Assembly (NCBI RefSeq): GCF_000429325.1
Contig: NZ_AUBQ01000005.1
Span: forward strand, 124,001 to 188,000
Source: Fundidesulfovibrio putealis DSM 16056
GTDB lineage: Bacteria; Desulfobacterota; Desulfovibrionia; Desulfovibrionales; Desulfovibrionaceae
Length of the DNA stretch: 64,000 nucleotides
Reading direction: 5' to 3'
The translations under genes were made by a program, and so were the position numbers. The notes under the pieces were generated by a model, which was not told where the DNA came from, did not search any database, and saw nothing but the letters and a program-made list of their open reading frames with translations. Positions within the stretch are counted from its first letter, which is position 1. Each line of letters opens with the position of its first letter. Shown piece after piece: positions 39,438-46,989 of this stretch.

Positions 39438-41375
39438 GTGAATATTCGCGTCGGTGATCAAATCGTCGAGGCCCAGGCCGGTCAGTCGGTCGGGGAGGTG
39501 CTTGCCAAAGCCCTTTCCGGAAAGGCCTACAAGAACACGGTAGTGGCTCGCTGCGGCGAGGCGCTTCTGGATTTGTCCGCCCCTCTTCCCGATACCTGCA
39601 CCGAACTTACTCCCATCGCAGCCAACAGCCCCGAAGGCGTGGACGTCATCCGGCACTCCACCGCCCACGTGCTGGCCGAGGCCGTGAAAAAGCTGTTCCC
39701 CACCGCCCAGGTCACCATCGGCCCGGCCATCGAGAACGGCTTCTACTATGATTTCGCTTACGAGCGCCCCTTCACCATCGACGACCTGGAGTCCATCCAG
39801 GCCGAGATGGAGAAGATCGTTGCCGCAAACCATCCCTTCACCTGCCGCGCCGCCACCAAGCCCGAGGCTGCGGAAGTGTTCAAGGGCATGGGCGAGGAGT
39901 ACAAGCTTGAGGTGCTGGAGGCCATCCCCTCCGACGGCGTCTCGCTGTACACTCAGGGAAATTTCGTGGATCTGTGCCGCGGACCCCACGTGCCCTCCAC
40001 CGGGTTCCTCAAGGCCTTCAAGCTCACCCACGTTGCCGGGGCCTACTGGCGCGGCGACGAGAAGCGCCCGATGCTGTCGCGCATCTACGGCGCGGCTTTC
40101 GCCGACCCCAAGGAGCTCAAGGCCTACCTGCACCGCCTGGAAGAGGCCAAGAAGCGCGACCATCGCCGCCTGGGCACCCAGCTGGACCTGTTCAGCTTCT
40201 CCGACGAGGCCGGAGCGGGCATGGTGATCTGGCATCCCAAGGGCGCGTTGGTGCGCACCATCCTGGAAGACTTCGAGCGCAAGGAGCACCTGCGCCGGGG
40301 CTACGGCATCGTCCAGGGCCCGCAGCTTCTCAAGCGCGACCTCTGGGAGCGCTCCGGGCACTACGAGAACTACCGCGAGAACATGTATTTCACCGAGATC
40401 GACGAGCAGGCCTACGGCGTCAAGCCCATGAACTGCCTGTCGCACATGCTGATCTACAAGTCGCGCCTGCGCTCCTACCGCGACCTGCCCCTGCGCTACT
40501 TCGAGCTTGGCGTGGTGCACCGCCACGAGAAGTCCGGCGTGCTGCACGGCCTCTTGCGCGTGCGCCAGTTCACCCAGGACGACGCGCACATCATCTGCCG
40601 CCCGGACCAGCTGCAGGACGAGATCATCGCCATCATCAATTTCGTCAAGGACGTGCTGGACCTGTTCGGCTTCGAGTTCGAAGCCCAGCTATCCACCCGT
40701 CCCGAGAAGTCCATCGGGTCCGACGAGGCGTGGGAACTGGCCACCAGCGCGCTGTCCCAGGCCATGCAGGCCATCGACATGCCCTTCACCATCAATGAGG
40801 GCGACGGCGCGTTCTACGGACCCAAGATTGACATCAAACTCAAGGATGCTTTAGATCGCCGGTGGCAGTGCGCGACCATACAGTGCGATTTCACCTTGCC
40901 GGAACGCTTCGACCTGACATACACCGGTCAGGATGGCGAAAAGCACCGGCCCGTGATGCTGCACCGCGTCGTGCTGGGTGCCGTGGAACGGTTCATGGGT
41001 GTGCTGATCGAGCACACGGCCGGAGCTTTCCCCACGTGGCTCGCACCGGTGCAGGCGCGTATTTTGACTGTCACCGAAGCCCATGACGCCCACGCGGCCC
41101 TCGTATACGAGCGGCTGCGCGACGCGGGCATCCGCGTCGAGGCCGACACGCGCAACGAGAAGCTGGGCTACAAGGTGCGCGAGGCTCAACTGGAGAAGGT
41201 CCCCTACATGCTCGTCATCGGGGATCAGGAGCTTGAGCAGGGCGGCGTCAACGTGCGCCTGCGTTCGGGCGAGAATTTGGGACTGAAGGGAGTGGACGAG
41301 GTCATTCAGGCCATCCTGGACGACTGCCAGGCCCCATTCAAACGAGGAGGAATGCGCTATATCTTCTGCCAGTGA
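39438..41375 (+). CDS. thrS: Threonyl-tRNA synthetase
   Basis: A 645-residue class II synthetase that charges tRNA-Thr. The N-terminal TGS domain ([24 protein letters not shown]) leads to the editing domain with [16 protein letters not shown]. The catalytic core holds [12 protein letters not shown] with a zinc-ligand Cys, [33 protein letters not shown] (motif 2) and [18 protein letters not shown] (motif 3). The C-terminal anticodon domain is complete. It uses a GTG start with GGGAG upstream. Its last 17 bases overlap the start region of infC. Confidence 0.97.
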
Positions 41376-41889
41376 CACCGCCCGCTGCAATCATCAGATC
41401 CGCGCCCGCGAGGTGCGGGTGATCGCTGACGACGGCTCGCAATTGGGTATCATCCCCACCAGCGAAGCCCTTCGACTGGCCCAGGAAAAGGGTCTGGACC
41501 TTGTCGAAGTCGCCGCCGCAGCCGATCCCCCTGTCTGCCGAATCATGGACTACGGCAAGTTCAAGTATCAGCAGCAGAAAAAGCAGCAGGAAGCCAAGAA
41601 GAAGTCCACCGTCATCCTTGTGAAGGAAATCAAAGTCCGGCCCAAGACCGACGAACACGACTACCTGACCAAGCTCAAGCACATTCGCCGCTTCCTGGAA
41701 GAGGGCGACCGCTGCAAGGTCTCCGTGTTCTTCCGTGGCCGCGAAGTTGTCCACAAGGACCGTGGCGCCGCCATCCTGGCGCGCATTGTGGTGGATCTCG
41801 GCGACCTGGCCAAGGTGGAACAGGAGCCCCGGTTCGAGGGACGCATCATGAACATGATGCTGGCCCCCACCGTGAAAAAGAAGCCATAG
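41359..41889 (+). CDS. infC: Translation initiation factor IF-3 with a probable ATA start codon
   Basis: A 176-residue IF-3, which binds the 30S subunit and proofreads start-codon pairing. [23 protein letters not shown] is the conserved N-domain start, [19 protein letters not shown] is the linker, and [18 protein letters not shown] starts the C-domain. These conserved residues lie upstream of the first GTG (41413), and no ATG, GTG or TTG in frame precedes them before thrS. ATA at 41359 lies eight bases after a perfect GAGGAGG (41344-41350) inside the thrS end, and gives a normal length. Non-AUG starts (AUU and kin) are known for infC and allow autoregulation. Confidence 0.88.
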
Positions 41890-42386: not shown

Positions 42387-42743
42387 ATGCGTGTCAAACG
42401 CGGACAGGCCGCCCATAAGCGGCACAAGAAGTATCTGAAGTTGGCCAAGGGCTTCGTCGGCGCCCGTTCGGTGCTGTACGAAACCGCCCGCGAGAACGTC
42501 GAGCGCGCCATGGCCTACGCCTACCGCGACCGCAAGGTTAAGAAGCGCGAGTTCCGCAAGCTGTGGATCATGCGCATCAACGCCGCCGCCCGCGAGAACG
42601 GCATAAGCTACGGCAAGTTCATCCACGGCCTGTCGCTGGCCGGCATCGAGCTGGACCGCAAGGTCCTGGCTGACATGGCCGTTCGCGAGAAGGCCGACTT
42701 CGCCAAGCTGGCCGAAGTCGCCAAAGCCAAGGTGAGCGTGTGA
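42387..42743 (+). CDS. rplT: 50S ribosomal protein L20
   Basis: A 118-residue L20, an early assembly protein of the large subunit. [27 protein letters not shown] and [24 protein letters not shown] are clear family signatures, and the length is usual. ATG 42387 follows AGGAGG by eight bases. Its last four bases overlap the pheS start (GTGA), so the two genes are translationally coupled. Confidence 0.97.
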
Positions 42744-43789
42744 GTTCAGGCCAGGCCCTGATTGAGGAATTGACCGCCCTGGCCGGGGAAGCCAAGAACA
42801 CCCTCGGCCAGGCGTCCTCTTTCGAGGCCCTTGAGGAACTGCGCGTGGCCTATCTGGGCCGCAAGGGCCGCTTGGCCCAGATCATGGCCAAGCTCCCCGG
42901 CCTCACCGCCGAGGAGAAGCGCCAGGCGGGCCAGACGGCCAACACCGTGAAAGAGGAACTCACGGCGCACTACACCGTGCGTCTGGAGGGACTCAAGCGC
43001 GCCCAGGACGAGGCCATGCTCGCCGGGTTCGACCCCGCCCTGCCGGGCAGGTCGCACCCCACGGGGGGCCTGCATCCTTTGAGCATCGTTTCCGACGAAA
43101 TCTGCCGGGCCTTTTCCGGCATGGGTTTCGAGGTGGTCACCGGCCCGGAGATAGAGACCGATTTCTACAACTTCGAGGCCCTGAACTTCCCGCCGGAACA
43201 TCCCGCCCGCGACATGCAGGACACCCTGTACATCGGGGACAACATCCTCCTGCGCACGCACACCTCGCCCCTGCAGGTGCGCACGCTGCTTTCCCGCAAG
43301 CCTCCCGTGGCGGCCATCGCTCCGGGCAAGGTCTACCGCCGCGACTCGGACATCACCCATTCGCCCATGTTCCACCAGATCGAGGGCTTCCTCGTGGACA
43401 AGGGCGTCACCATGGCCGATCTGCGCGGCACGCTCACCTTTTTCGTGCACCGCATCTTCGGACCCGACACCCTGGTGCGGTTCCGTCCCAGCTTCTTCCC
43501 CTTCACCGAGCCGAGCGCAGAGGTCGATATCTCCTGCGTCATGTGCGAGGGCAAGGGACACGTGGGCGGGCAGACCTGCCGCGTGTGCAAGTCCACCGGC
43601 TGGGTGGAGATCCTGGGTTGCGGCATGATCGACCCCAACGTGCTGAAAGCCGTGGACATCGATCCGGAAGTGTATTCCGGGTTCGCCTTCGGCATGGGCG
43701 TGGAGCGGGTGACCATGCTCAAGTACGGCGTGGGCGACCTGCGGCTCTTCTTCGAGAACGACGTCCGCTTCCTGGGCCAGTTCGCGTAG
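42740..43789 (+). CDS. pheS: Phenylalanyl-tRNA synthetase alpha subunit
   Basis: A 349-residue alpha subunit. An N-terminal coiled coil (about residues 1-90, with the conserved [13 protein letters not shown]) precedes the class II core: [53 protein letters not shown] (motif 2) and [18 protein letters not shown] (motif 3). A CxxC-CxxC pair ([18 protein letters not shown]) forms the zinc-like knuckle seen in some bacteria. It starts with GTG, overlapping rplT. In most bacteria pheT follows directly; here a toxin-antitoxin pair comes first. Confidence 0.96.
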
Positions 43790-43805
43790 GCTGCGGGGCC
43801 AGGCC

Positions 43806-44093
43806 ATGCGCCTCACTCCCGAAGAAAAGCACATCATAAAGGCTGCCGTGGCCGCGCAGGACCCGCAGGCCGAAGTGTGGCTTTTCGGGTCGCGCGCGGA
43901 CGATTCCAAGCGCGGCGGCGACATCGACCTGCTCATTTTCTCGCAGTCCATGGGCTGGAAGGAGAAGAGTGCAGTCTGGTGGGAACTCCAGGAAAAGCTC
44001 GGTGAACAGAAGATCGACATAGTCGTGGCCAAGGACAAGGACGCGAGCGAGCCGTTCGTGCAGATGGCCATGGAGAAGGCGGTACAGCTATGA
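43806..44093 (+). CDS. mntA: MNT-domain nucleotidyltransferase, MntA-type antitoxin
   Basis: A 95-residue minimal nucleotidyltransferase. VWLFGSRADDSKRGGDIDLLI contains the GSx9DxD active site (Gly28, Ser29, Asp39, Asp41) of MNT antitoxins, which in the characterised MntA-HepT systems transfer AMP to a tyrosine of the HEPN toxin. It begins 16 bases after the pheS stop and overlaps the HEPN gene by four bases (ATGA). The C-terminal DIVVAKDKDASEPFVQMAMEKA fits a third carboxylate region. Symbol assigned by system type; activity untested here. Confidence 0.87.
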   Translation: MRLTPEEKHIIKAAVAAQDPQAEVWLFGSRADDSKRGGDIDLLIFSQSMGWKEKSAVWWELQEKLGEQKIDIVVAKDKDASEPFVQMAMEKAVQL

Positions 44094-44542
44094 AAACGTC
44101 TTCAGCGCAGCAAAACCTGCGTGATTCGTTGGCACAGCTGAGGCCATCTCTGGTTCATCTGCAGGATTCCTACGAGTTCTGCCGGGATTTGTGCGGCAGG
44201 GTTTCGTTGACCCGGTCAGAACTCGTCGAGGCCGACGCTCTCACGAGTCGTTTCGCCAGAACTTCGGACATCTTGGTCAAACAGGTCTTCCGAGCCTTGG
44301 ACGAGGTTGAGCTTGAAGACAGCGGGTCCATCATCGACCGGCTCAATCGCGCGCACAAACGCGGTCTTTTCGATGATGAGGCCATGGGGCGCACCATTCG
44401 TCAACTGCGCAACGAGATCGCCCACGAATACCGAATTGTGGACTACCCCAAATTTCTCGACGAGATAATCGCTTTTACTCCGCCGCTCCTGGATATGTGC
44501 CGCAGGACAGTGGAATACTCGGAACGAATCAAATTTTCATGA
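44090..44542 (+). CDS. hepT: HEPN-domain toxin, HepT-type
   Basis: A 150-residue all-helical HEPN protein. RNEIAHEY (Arg107 to Tyr114) gives the RxxxxH catalytic motif of HEPN RNases and also the extended RX4HXY form whose Tyr (here Tyr114) is the AMPylation target in known HepT toxins. The rest is helical with IIDRLNRAHKRGLFDDEAMGRTIRQL before the motif. It overlaps the MNT gene by four bases, and pheT begins 50 bases later. In characterised systems the toxin cuts tRNA or mRNA; its target here is unknown. Confidence 0.86.
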   Translation: MKTSSAQQNLRDSLAQLRPSLVHLQDSYEFCRDLCGRVSLTRSELVEADALTSRFARTSDILVKQVFRALDEVELEDSGSIIDRLNRAHKRGLFDDEAMGRTIRQLRNEIAHEYRIVDYPKFLDEIIAFTPPLLDMCRRTVEYSERIKFS

Positions 44543-44592
44543 TGTCGCCTGCCTTGAACGAAGGCCGGACCTTGACCGCCGGAGGCTTTTGA

Positions 44593-46989
44593 ATGCTGCT
44601 TTCTCTCAATTGGCTGCGCGAGTTCGTCCCCTACGAGGGATCCGTGGACACCCTGGCCGACCGCCTGACCATGCTGGGCCTGGAAGTGGAGGGCGTAAGC
44701 CGTCCCTTCGCGGCCACCGCCGACGTGGTGGTGGGCCACGTGCTCACCCGCGAGAAGCACCCTGACGCCGACAAGCTCTCGGTGTGCACCGTGGACGTGG
44801 GGCAGGGCGAACCCCTGCAGATCGTGTGCGGCGCCGCCAACGTGGCTGCCGGTCTGAGCGTGCCCGTGGCCAGGATCGGCACGGTGCTGCCCGGCGGGCT
44901 GACCATCAAGAAGAGCAAGATTCGCGGCGTGGAGTCCTTCGGCATGATCTGCTCCGAGTCGGAGCTGGGCCTGGCCGAGAAGAGCGAGGGCATCCTGGAG
45001 CTTCCCGCAGGACTTAAGCCCGGCAAGACTTTGGCAGAGGCCATGAACCTGGACGACGTGGTGCTGGAGATCGGCATCACCCCCAACCGGGCGGACTGCC
45101 TCTCCGTGCTGGGGCTGGCCCGCGAGGCCGCCATGGCCTTTGGCCTGCCACTGACCATGCCTTCGGTGCACCTGAAGGAGGACGGCCCGGACGCGTCCAC
45201 CCTGGTGTCCATCCGCATCCCCGAGCCCGAACTGTGCCCGGTGTACCGCGCCCGCATCATCCGTGGCGTGGAGATCAAGGCCTCTCCCGCCTGGATGCGT
45301 TACCGCCTGACCGCCATGGGCCAGCGTCCGGTGAACAACATCGTGGACGTGACCAACTACGTCATGCTGGAACTTGGCCAGCCCCTGCACGCCTTCGACA
45401 GGAACCTGCTGGCCGGGGACTACATCGAGATAAGCCGCGCCGCCGAGGGCACGCGCTTCAATACCCTGGACGGCCAGGAGCGCGTGCTGACCACCCGCGA
45501 CCTCCTGATCCGCGACGGGGCCAAGGCCGTTGCGCTGGCAGGCGTCATGGGCGGCGAGAACTCCGAAATTTCCGACCGCTCCACCGAGGTGCTGCTGGAG
45601 TGCGCCGTGTTCAACCCGGCCACCATCCGCAAGACCGCCCGCCGCCTGGGCCTCTCCAGCGAGTCCTCCTACCGCTACGAGCGCGGCGTGGACCAGCCCG
45701 GCTCGCTCTTCGCCATGAACCGCGCCGCCGCCCTCATGGCCGAGGTGGCCGACGGTCGCGTGCTGCCCGGAATCGCCGAGGCCGAGCCCAAGCCCTGGAA
45801 GCCCTCGCCCATCGGGTTCAGGCCCGCCAAGGCGGTGAGCCTGCTGGGCATCGAGCTCTCCAACGATTTTTGCCGCAAGACCTTCCAGGGCCTGGGCTGC
45901 GAGGTGGAGCTCAAGTCCGCCGACGCCTGGACCATCACGCCCCCGCCCGCCCGCCAGGACCTGGAGCGCGAGGTGGACCTGATCGAAGAGGTTGCGCGCG
46001 TGTACGGCATGGACCGCATCCCGGCCGCCATGCCCAAGATGCTGAAATCCCTCGAAGTGCCTGACCGCCTGGGCGCGGAAGTGCCCTTCATGGGCCGCCT
46101 GAAGACCTGGGCCTGCGGCGCTGGCCTTCGCGAGACCGTGAACTACTCCTTCGTGGGCCAGCAGGAACTCGACCTGCTGGGCCTGCCGGGAGAGGGCCGC
46201 GTCCCTGTGGCCAACCCCCTCTCGGAAGACCAGAACGTCATGCGCACCGAGCTGGCCCCCGGGCTCATGAAGGCCGTTCGCCACAACCTGTCGCAGGGCA
46301 ACGCCACGCTTCGCCTGTTCGAGCTGGCCAAGGCCTTCACCGCGGACAGCGCCAGCGAGACCACCGTGCGCGAGGCCCATCGCCTGGGCATCGCCCTGTG
46401 CGGTGCGCGCTTCGGCTCCTTCCCCTGGCCCGAGGAGAAGGTCGACTACTCCGACCTCAAGGGGCTGGTGGAGCAGCTGCTGTCCTCGCTTGGCCTGTCG
46501 GGCGCACAGTACGCCGTGCAGAAGGACCACCCCTGGCTTTCGCCCTGCGTGCAGGTGAGCCTGGACGGGCGCGTGCTCGGCGTCATGGGCCGCGTGCTCC
46601 AGGACGTGGCCGACAGCTACGAGGCCAAGGCCGGACTGTGGATGGCGGAGCTCGACGCCGAGGCCCTCATGGCCCTGCACCAGCACCGCTCCATCCGTTT
46701 CCGGGGCCTGCCCAAGTTCCCGCCGTCGCGCCGCGACGTGACCCTGGTGATGCCTTCCACGCTCTCCGTGGCCGAGGTGCTGGGAGCAGCGCGCGCCCAC
46801 AAGGCCGCCATCCTGGAGGACGTGGCCGTGCACGACCTCTTCGAGCCCGAAGGCGCGACCGAGAAGAACGTGACCTTCCGCATCACCTATCGCCACGCCG
46901 AGCGCACCCTCACCGACAAGGACGTGGACAAGGCCCATGCCGGCCTGTGCGACGCGCTGTCCAAGGCTTTGCCGGTGCGCTTCCAGTAG
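44593..46989 (+). CDS. pheT: Phenylalanyl-tRNA synthetase beta subunit
   Basis: A 798-residue beta subunit that pairs with PheS and edits Tyr-tRNA-Phe. The N-terminal tRNA-binding domain (HVLTREKHPDADKLSVCTVDVG ... LQIVCGAANV) is followed by the B3/B4 editing region, the B5 domain with SESSYRYERGVD, and the C-terminal anticodon-binding fold LPKFPPSRRDVTLVMP. Length and domain order are standard. ATG 44593 follows CCGGAGGC, so it has its own ribosome site after the toxin gene. A terminator follows. Confidence 0.96.
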   Translation: MLLSLNWLREFVPYEGSVDTLADRLTMLGLEVEGVSRPFAATADVVVGHVLTREKHPDADKLSVCTVDVGQGEPLQIVCGAANVAAGLSVPVARIGTVLPGGLTIKKSKIRGVESFGMICSESELGLAEKSEGILELPAGLKPGKTLAEAMNLDDVVLEIGITPNRADCLSVLGLAREAAMAFGLPLTMPSVHLKEDGPDASTLVSIRIPEPELCPVYRARIIRGVEIKASPAWMRYRLTAMGQRPVNNIVDVTNYVMLELGQPLHAFDRNLLAGDYIEISRAAEGTRFNTLDGQERVLTTRDLLIRDGAKAVALAGVMGGENSEISDRSTEVLLECAVFNPATIRKTARRLGLSSESSYRYERGVDQPGSLFAMNRAAALMAEVADGRVLPGIAEAEPKPWKPSPIGFRPAKAVSLLGIELSNDFCRKTFQGLGCEVELKSADAWTITPPPARQDLEREVDLIEEVARVYGMDRIPAAMPKMLKSLEVPDRLGAEVPFMGRLKTWACGAGLRETVNYSFVGQQELDLLGLPGEGRVPVANPLSEDQNVMRTELAPGLMKAVRHNLSQGNATLRLFELAKAFTADSASETTVREAHRLGIALCGARFGSFPWPEEKVDYSDLKGLVEQLLSSLGLSGAQYAVQKDHPWLSPCVQVSLDGRVLGVMGRVLQDVADSYEAKAGLWMAELDAEALMALHQHRSIRFRGLPKFPPSRRDVTLVMPSTLSVAEVLGAARAHKAAILEDVAVHDLFEPEGATEKNVTFRITYRHAERTLTDKDVDKAHAGLCDALSKALPVRFQ

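Follow-up and report, generated by a model that had tools for sequence, protein, structure and literature searches.

Locus organization

The window, a stretch of 64,000 nucleotides from the genome of Fundidesulfovibrio putealis DSM 16056, carries a two-gene cassette in the order pheS, MNT, HEPN, pheT, with all four ORFs called on the + strand. The MNT gene (43806-44093, +) encodes a minimal nucleotidyltransferase of 95 amino acids, a putative antitoxin of a subfamily marked by the motif GSx9DxD, and matches PF18765 and PF01909. The HEPN gene (44090-44542, +) encodes a putative RNase toxin of 150 amino acids, which is HepT-like with a score below cut-off. The HEPN start lies inside the MNT stop, giving a 4-base overlap (ATGA). 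The host flanks are pheS (42740-43789, +; TIGR00468, 314 bits versus a cut-off of 237) and pheT (44593-46989, +; TIGR00472, 816 bits versus a cut-off of 403). Upstream lie thrS (39438-41375, +), infC for IF-3 (41413-41889, +), rpmI for L35 (41972-42169, +) and rplT for L20 (42387-42743, +), each named by an NCBIfam equivalog above its cut-off. The cluster thrS-infC-rpmI-rplT-pheST is a classical one and is also found in E. coli.

MNT starts 16 bases after the pheS stop (43790-43805, +), a spacing into which a separate promoter would not fit, and the gap between HEPN and pheT is 50 bases (44543-44592, +), with GGAGG ahead of pheT. An earlier note on this DNA had placed the pair between pheS and pheT, and its ORFs, spacing, overlap and strand were confirmed. 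The same note had considered a promoter and terminator isolating the pair from its neighbors. A promoter scan gave no sigma-70-like match on the + strand between pheS and pheT, and terminator-like sites between 38500 and 48500 numbered 8, against a shuffle mean of 7.3, i.e., no excess over chance. With spacings this short and no promoter match in the slot, co-transcription of the pair with the pheS-pheT cluster is a likely prediction.

Features of the MNT and HEPN proteins

The MNT protein scores above the Pfam cut-offs for Polbeta (PF18765, 32.3 versus 26.9 bits) and NTP_transf_2 (PF01909, 29.3 versus 21 bits). Its GSx9DxD motif (G28, S29, D39, I40 and D41) is encoded at 43887-43928 (+), and a third acidic residue, Asp71 (44016-44018, +), is invariant in 21/21 aligned MNTs. 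Against NCBIfam NF047752 (MntA) the window MNT reaches 26.8 bits, under the curated cut-off of 60 bits; 12 of 21 family MNTs match this model when counted at E<=0.001 rather than by the curated cut-off. The MNT family profile matches MntA-type loci with E 1.1e-6 (profile-profile), and among solved structures PDB 8xeh with E 1.8e-5 and HI0073 (1no5) with E 3.6e-5.

The HEPN protein carries an RX4HXY motif (44408-44431, +), in which R107 and H112 belong to a predicted RNase site and Tyr114 is a putative AMP acceptor. The catalytic motifs that the earlier note had described in both proteins are intact and supported by homology. The window HEPN scores 18.2 bits (E 0.0021) against HepT-like (PF01934), under the cut-off of 23.5 bits, and lies under both Pfam HEPN cut-offs (PF01934 and PF08780); the copy of another Desulfovibrionaceae genome, G257, scores above that of PF01934. 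PF01934 is matched at E<=0.01 by 27/34 family members. The window HEPN gave no match to NCBIfam NF047751 (HepT) at E<=0.001, a threshold at which, rather than by the curated cut-off, 2/34 family HEPNs match. The HEPN family profile matches HepT-type proteins with E 7.5e-7 over 46 columns (profile-profile). Its best PDB match is HI0074 (1jog) with E 0.017, and the match to 8xdj is weak (E 0.64).

The GSx9DxD subfamily

The extent of the subfamily was assessed with the HEPN alignment in 84,980 species genomes, from which the best 80 of 182 relatives were used together with 4 loci from the order. In this set of 84 loci the subfamily carries 15 phylum labels, one of them archaeal. Both genes are in view at 82/84 loci, whereas L051 and L071 reach a contig end or gave no MNT match. 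In the same best-80-of-182 set, RX4HXY is present in 84/84 HEPNs, GSx9DxD in 81/82 MNTs (the exception being a contig-end truncation), and GSX10DXD in 0/82 MNTs. MNT comes first wherever both genes were found, and the overlap is exactly 4 bases in 64/82, with starts chosen by script. Among the MNTs listed next to ordinary PF01934 HepTs from this order, 11/11 carry GSX10DXD. This longer spacing was demanded of the MNT in the published class I census (PMC7641770), and no publication joining GSX9DXD with HEPN was found in a literature search. By its sequence, the pair is a member of a distinct HEPN/MNT subfamily, set apart by a motif with one residue fewer than in the published GSX10DXD. The earlier note had read the GSx9DxD motif correctly and had left its one-residue shortfall unweighed. 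Ordinary GSX10DXD/HepT-type loci do occur at other places in this genus (L200 in G005 and L207 in G002); the window's own genome has no ordinary HepT-type locus at E<=1e-5.

Relation to characterised HEPN/MNT systems

Adjacent genes with MNT first place the window pair in the HEPN/MNT superfamily. As type VII class I is defined in PMC7641770, RX4HXY is present here and GSX10DXD is absent from the MNT; for the accompanying Pfam definition (PF01934 or PF08780 with PF01909), the MNT scores above the PF01909 cut-off and the window HEPN below its own. Both window proteins lie under the NCBIfam equivalog cut-offs (NF047752 MntA and NF047751 HepT), which together with four HEPN queries without a plasmid match (see below) distinguishes them from type VII HepT/MntA.

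In the characterised systems, as described in PMC7641770 and PMC11586414, MNT AMPylates the tyrosine of RX4HXY and the RNase site of HEPN is then blocked. The window pair resembles HepT/MntA of Shewanella oneidensis (SO_3166/SO_3165) in its gene order (MNT before HEPN), in an RX4HXY motif that includes the acceptor tyrosine, in a profile-level relationship, and in three acidic residues, D39, D41 and D71, with numbers identical to those named for S. oneidensis MntA in PMC7641770. However, the spacing is GSx9DxD here and GSX10DXD there, a spacing absent from the 82 MNTs of the best-80-of-182 set. The HEPN-MNT pair of Legionella pneumophila (8xeh/8xdj; PMC11586414) includes the best solved relative of the MNT profile, 8xeh, but has GSX10DXD, and the similarity of the HEPNs is weak and spans the N-terminal half. 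HI0073 and HI0074 resemble the pair by the profile matches given above, whereas HI0073 has the spacing GSX10DXD and the HI0074 family matches only 5/34 HEPN members at E<=0.001.

These matches to the HI0074 substrate-binding family, together with HI0074 as the best PDB relative, would fit a nucleotidyltransferase that has been domesticated and is non-toxic, with HEPN as its substrate-binding subunit, the two modifying a cellular target. Such a function appears unlikely, given that the RX4H RNase residues are kept in 84/84 members of the best-80-of-182 set; these residues are typically lost in fused or domesticated HEPNs, according to PMC3710099. The patchy presence and loss of the pair, described below, also speak against it.

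The pheS-pheT slot in Desulfovibrionaceae

A HEPN protein search matched 5/288 genomes of the family at E<=0.001, and all 5 copies lie between pheS and pheT, with the MNT kept in the same slot in the 5 genomes. These are the window's genome (G000) and G002 of the same genus, G039 and G040 of genus g17, and G257 of genus g39. The location of MNT/HEPN in one slot is beyond chance, as four other Desulfovibrionaceae genomes have the same pair there. A profile of the 5 HEPN sequences matched 16/348 genomes of the order, of which only G336, from another family, gave a strong match besides the slot copies (E 2e-42); its copy adjoins polA, not pheT.

The C-terminal part of PheS was detected in 273/288 genomes, and the slot was fetched in 85, of which 82 have pheT adjoining pheS within the stretch; G006, the seventh genome of the window's genus, lies outside this count. 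The slot is filled in 5/82 genomes, and the other 77 have 9-617 bases without such a pair. In G034, G035 and G278 (L168, L169 and L192), pheT is absent beside pheS within the fetched stretch. The nearest relative, G004, has a PheS 99.7% identical to that of the window and an empty slot with a gap of 73 bases. The DNA on either side of the cassette is about 93-95% identical between G004 and the window, and similarity to the empty site resumes only in the last ~20 bases ahead of pheT. Since the cassette flanks align with empty sites only at these last bases, insertion, deletion and replacement are indistinguishable there.

In a host tree built from parts of PheS and PheT (85 genomes), the 5 filled genomes fall within a single 23-member clade, and Fitch parsimony counts 4 changes. 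By this tree, the pair in the pheS-pheT slot is confined to one clade and was several times lost (or regained), the history being either a single gain followed by about ten losses or four separate gains at this position. The g17 and g39 cassettes are mutual nearest relatives in HEPN, consistent with the host tree. In the MNT tree, support for a single origin in the slot is weak (23/62), and a test of HEPN monophyly neither established nor rejected it (p-AU 0.374). The dS of pheT between G000 and G004 is 0.265, versus 0.05-0.18 for six neighboring genes. This raised value is suggestive, not decisive, of an import of the cassette by recombination together with pheT.

Empty gaps show other features. 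In the Solidesulfovibrio-type genus g39 (L143-L153), a perfect or near-perfect palindrome of ~40 bases lies ahead of pheT in 7/8 aligned empty gaps. Three g39 genomes have it scattered over 7-11 sites apiece, and a search for it gave nothing in G004, G039 or the genome of the window. The pheS-pheT gap of the cassette-bearing G257 is without the palindrome. In Desulfovibrio-type genomes (L193, L194, L195, L180 and L181), the gap holds another small, secreted-looking ORF, with a common GGMGYTDAYGNT-like stretch in L193-L195.

The earlier note had proposed that co-expression could tie the toxin level to that of the synthetase, which would make the pair a regulator linked to PheRS or tRNA-Phe levels, or that the synthetase pair could protect the cassette from loss, and had itself counted absence in close relatives against the idea. 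The comparison of pheS-pheT slots that it called for did recover the same pair in 5 genomes of three genera, a conservation that fits its proposal, as does the implication of type VII HEPN toxins in tRNA digestion (PMC11586414). However, no such pair is present in 77/82 slots, G004 among them, and the same subfamily stands elsewhere beside ribBA, acnB, hemF, lpdA, serS, priA, uvrB, nadD and rmlD. Because the slot is empty in close relatives and the subfamily occurs elsewhere beside unrelated genes, the functional link to PheST is unsupported and highly improbable; protection by the synthetase genes is likewise unsupported. A PheST-specific role was thus rejected on the empty slots and the other housekeeping contexts of the relatives.

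Discordant history of the two genes

When the window is compared with G002, identity is 81% for MNT, 89% for pheS and 82% for pheT, versus 43% for HEPN. The corresponding dS values are 0.57, 0.51 and 0.46, versus about 2.0 for HEPN, a value that indicates synonymous saturation; no other gene in the comparison exceeds the dS of infC (0.81). Fourfold sites differ at 22/30 positions in HEPN and at 144/453 in MNT, pheS and pheT together (p 1e-5). Where the residue agrees, the same codon is used in 27/63 cases in HEPN, versus 49/67, 217/301 and 282/377 in the other three. This excess divergence of HEPN is independent of fast amino-acid change. GC3 in this comparison is 0.65 and 0.71 for the two HEPNs, versus 0.80 and 0.94 for the MNTs. 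Among 63 cassette pairs with an MNT identity of at least 0.70, which are not independent of each other, the HEPN identity of 0.43 is the lowest, followed by 0.59. The HEPN of a Geobacter MAG is no less similar to the window HEPN (0.44) than is that of G002 (0.43). None of the other same-slot pairs, in which some rows represent one genome twice, has the HEPN discord of the window's genus.

As MNT diverged like pheS and pheT while HEPN is saturated at synonymous sites, the HEPN of one or both species was probably replaced by a divergent allele behind a retained MNT. The best HEPN tree nonetheless joins the window and G002 HEPNs as neighbors with a support of 19/74, which leaves some probability for very fast change of HEPN inside the slot.

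Genomic contexts of relatives

NCBIfam named 18/20 flanking proteins scanned at the relatives' loci. Relatives are flanked on both sides by acnB and proA, ribBA and ribH, hemF and hemN, lpdA and lipB, or rmlD and rmlB, and others have one named flank (serS, priA at two loci, nadD, uvrB or polA). The methanotroph family has the pair in 13/151 genomes with 15 copies, several of these genomes overlapping with the species-wide scan. Three copies lie between ribBA and ribH, 5 follow acnB on its downstream side, 2 show a single flank (proA or nadD), and 5 lie elsewhere. Two of the 15 (L226 and L227) have an in-frame stop in HEPN with a full-length MNT, as would be expected if HEPN is the costly partner. 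In a Campylobacterota family, the pair is present in 6/44 genomes.

Tight embedding was defined as co-directional neighbors within 100 bases on both sides, with genes taken from the analysis's own codon-usage gene caller, and seven near-duplicate loci (L026, L036, L045, L046, L052, L058 and L094) were dropped. The controls were HEPN/MNT or HepT loci, a small set from one order, from which L210 (the G257 cassette itself) was excluded. Both-sided embedding was found at 22/58 family loci (24/65 before de-duplication) versus 3/24 controls (p 0.034), and tight downstream linkage at 33/67 versus 5/27 (p 0.0098). Compared with ordinary gene triples of the same loci, the family shows no excess of embedding (22/58 versus 79/185, p 0.55). 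The pair is embedded like neighboring genes and unlike the controls, and therefore sits as an ordinary operon gene. Since related pairs lie among other housekeeping genes in unrelated bacteria, the cassette seems to be carried along by essential operons rather than to work with PheST.

No match was obtained with four HEPN queries (window, L004, L072 and L083) in 72,556 plasmid records, among which the carrier taxa of the subfamily are few. The window MNT gave 2 weak matches in plasmid records, and a HepT of the same genus (L200 in G005) matched 1,493, mostly enterobacterial. Phage records gave no match to the L004 HEPN or the window MNT, and viral contigs none to the HEPN alignment. As far as searched, the subfamily is off plasmids and phages and is chromosome-borne.

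The cassette might also be an ordinary, patchily distributed toxin-antitoxin pair, its place in the operon incidental and the slot merely tolerant of insertion. The equality of embedding with neighboring genes agrees with this, as do the many family loci that lie within variable regions, such as those for polysaccharides, or next to genes of opposite orientation. Thermus thermophilus HB8 provides a precedent: its lysine operon holds an MNT-HEPN module that HB27 lacks (PMC2701414), because of which operon insertion as such is not new. That module shares with the cassette its presence or absence inside a host operon between close relatives, but is a single anecdote, and the likeness noted is that of operon setting. 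A literature search found nothing on a toxin-antitoxin pair in the pheS-pheT slot among the papers covered. The excess of both-sided embedding and downstream linkage over the controls, and the absence of plasmid matches for four HEPN queries against 1,493 for the same-genus HepT, speak against an incidental placement, which is considered doubtful, albeit a serious contender.

Proposed function and significance

The preferred reading, held at a probability of about 0.55, is that the cassette is a type-VII-like HEPN/MNT toxin/antitoxin pair of the chromosomal GSx9DxD subfamily, which is read from a host operon, is often lost, and probably had its HEPN swapped in the window's genus. This reading starts from the observed anatomy, motifs, conservation, presence and absence, and discordant history of the two genes; co-transcription, toxicity, AMPylation, RNase activity with its target, and the trigger are predicted. 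Because the residues needed are present, the pair may share the chemistry of the characterised systems. With no evident promoter of its own, it would be expressed from the thrS-infC-rpmI-rplT-pheS-pheT cluster. MNT would be made first, with HEPN coupled to it through the 4-base overlap. MNT would AMPylate Tyr114 of HEPN, and the R107/H112 RNase site of the HEPN dimer would thereby be blocked. If synthesis or the ATP-dependent modification failed, because of stress or a shut-off of the host, HEPN would be released to cleave RNA, and growth would stop. tRNA is one possible target of HEPN; nothing singles out tRNA-Phe.

A broader and more tentative proposal, judged rather less probable than not, is that a chromosome-only GSx9DxD subfamily has given up its own promoter and plasmid life. 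It would lodge between co-directional genes of essential operons, inherit its slot within clades, relocate between clades and swap the HEPN behind a fixed MNT. By its embedding in a translation or biosynthesis operon, the pair would then report continued host expression, and a shut-off, for example by phage, would free the toxin.

The cassette is best filed as a variant of HEPN/MNT pairs, new in its motif, its chromosomal operon residence and the probable swap of its HEPN in the window's genus. The replacement of HEPN behind a retained MNT predicts that one MNT neutralises quite different HEPNs. The pairs of genomes with and without the cassette (G000 versus G004, G039/G040 versus G041, and G257 versus its genus) offer natural test material. 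If this is a true toxin/antitoxin that persists in essential operons and stays away from plasmids, it would separate host-benefit from plasmid-addiction explanations of such systems.
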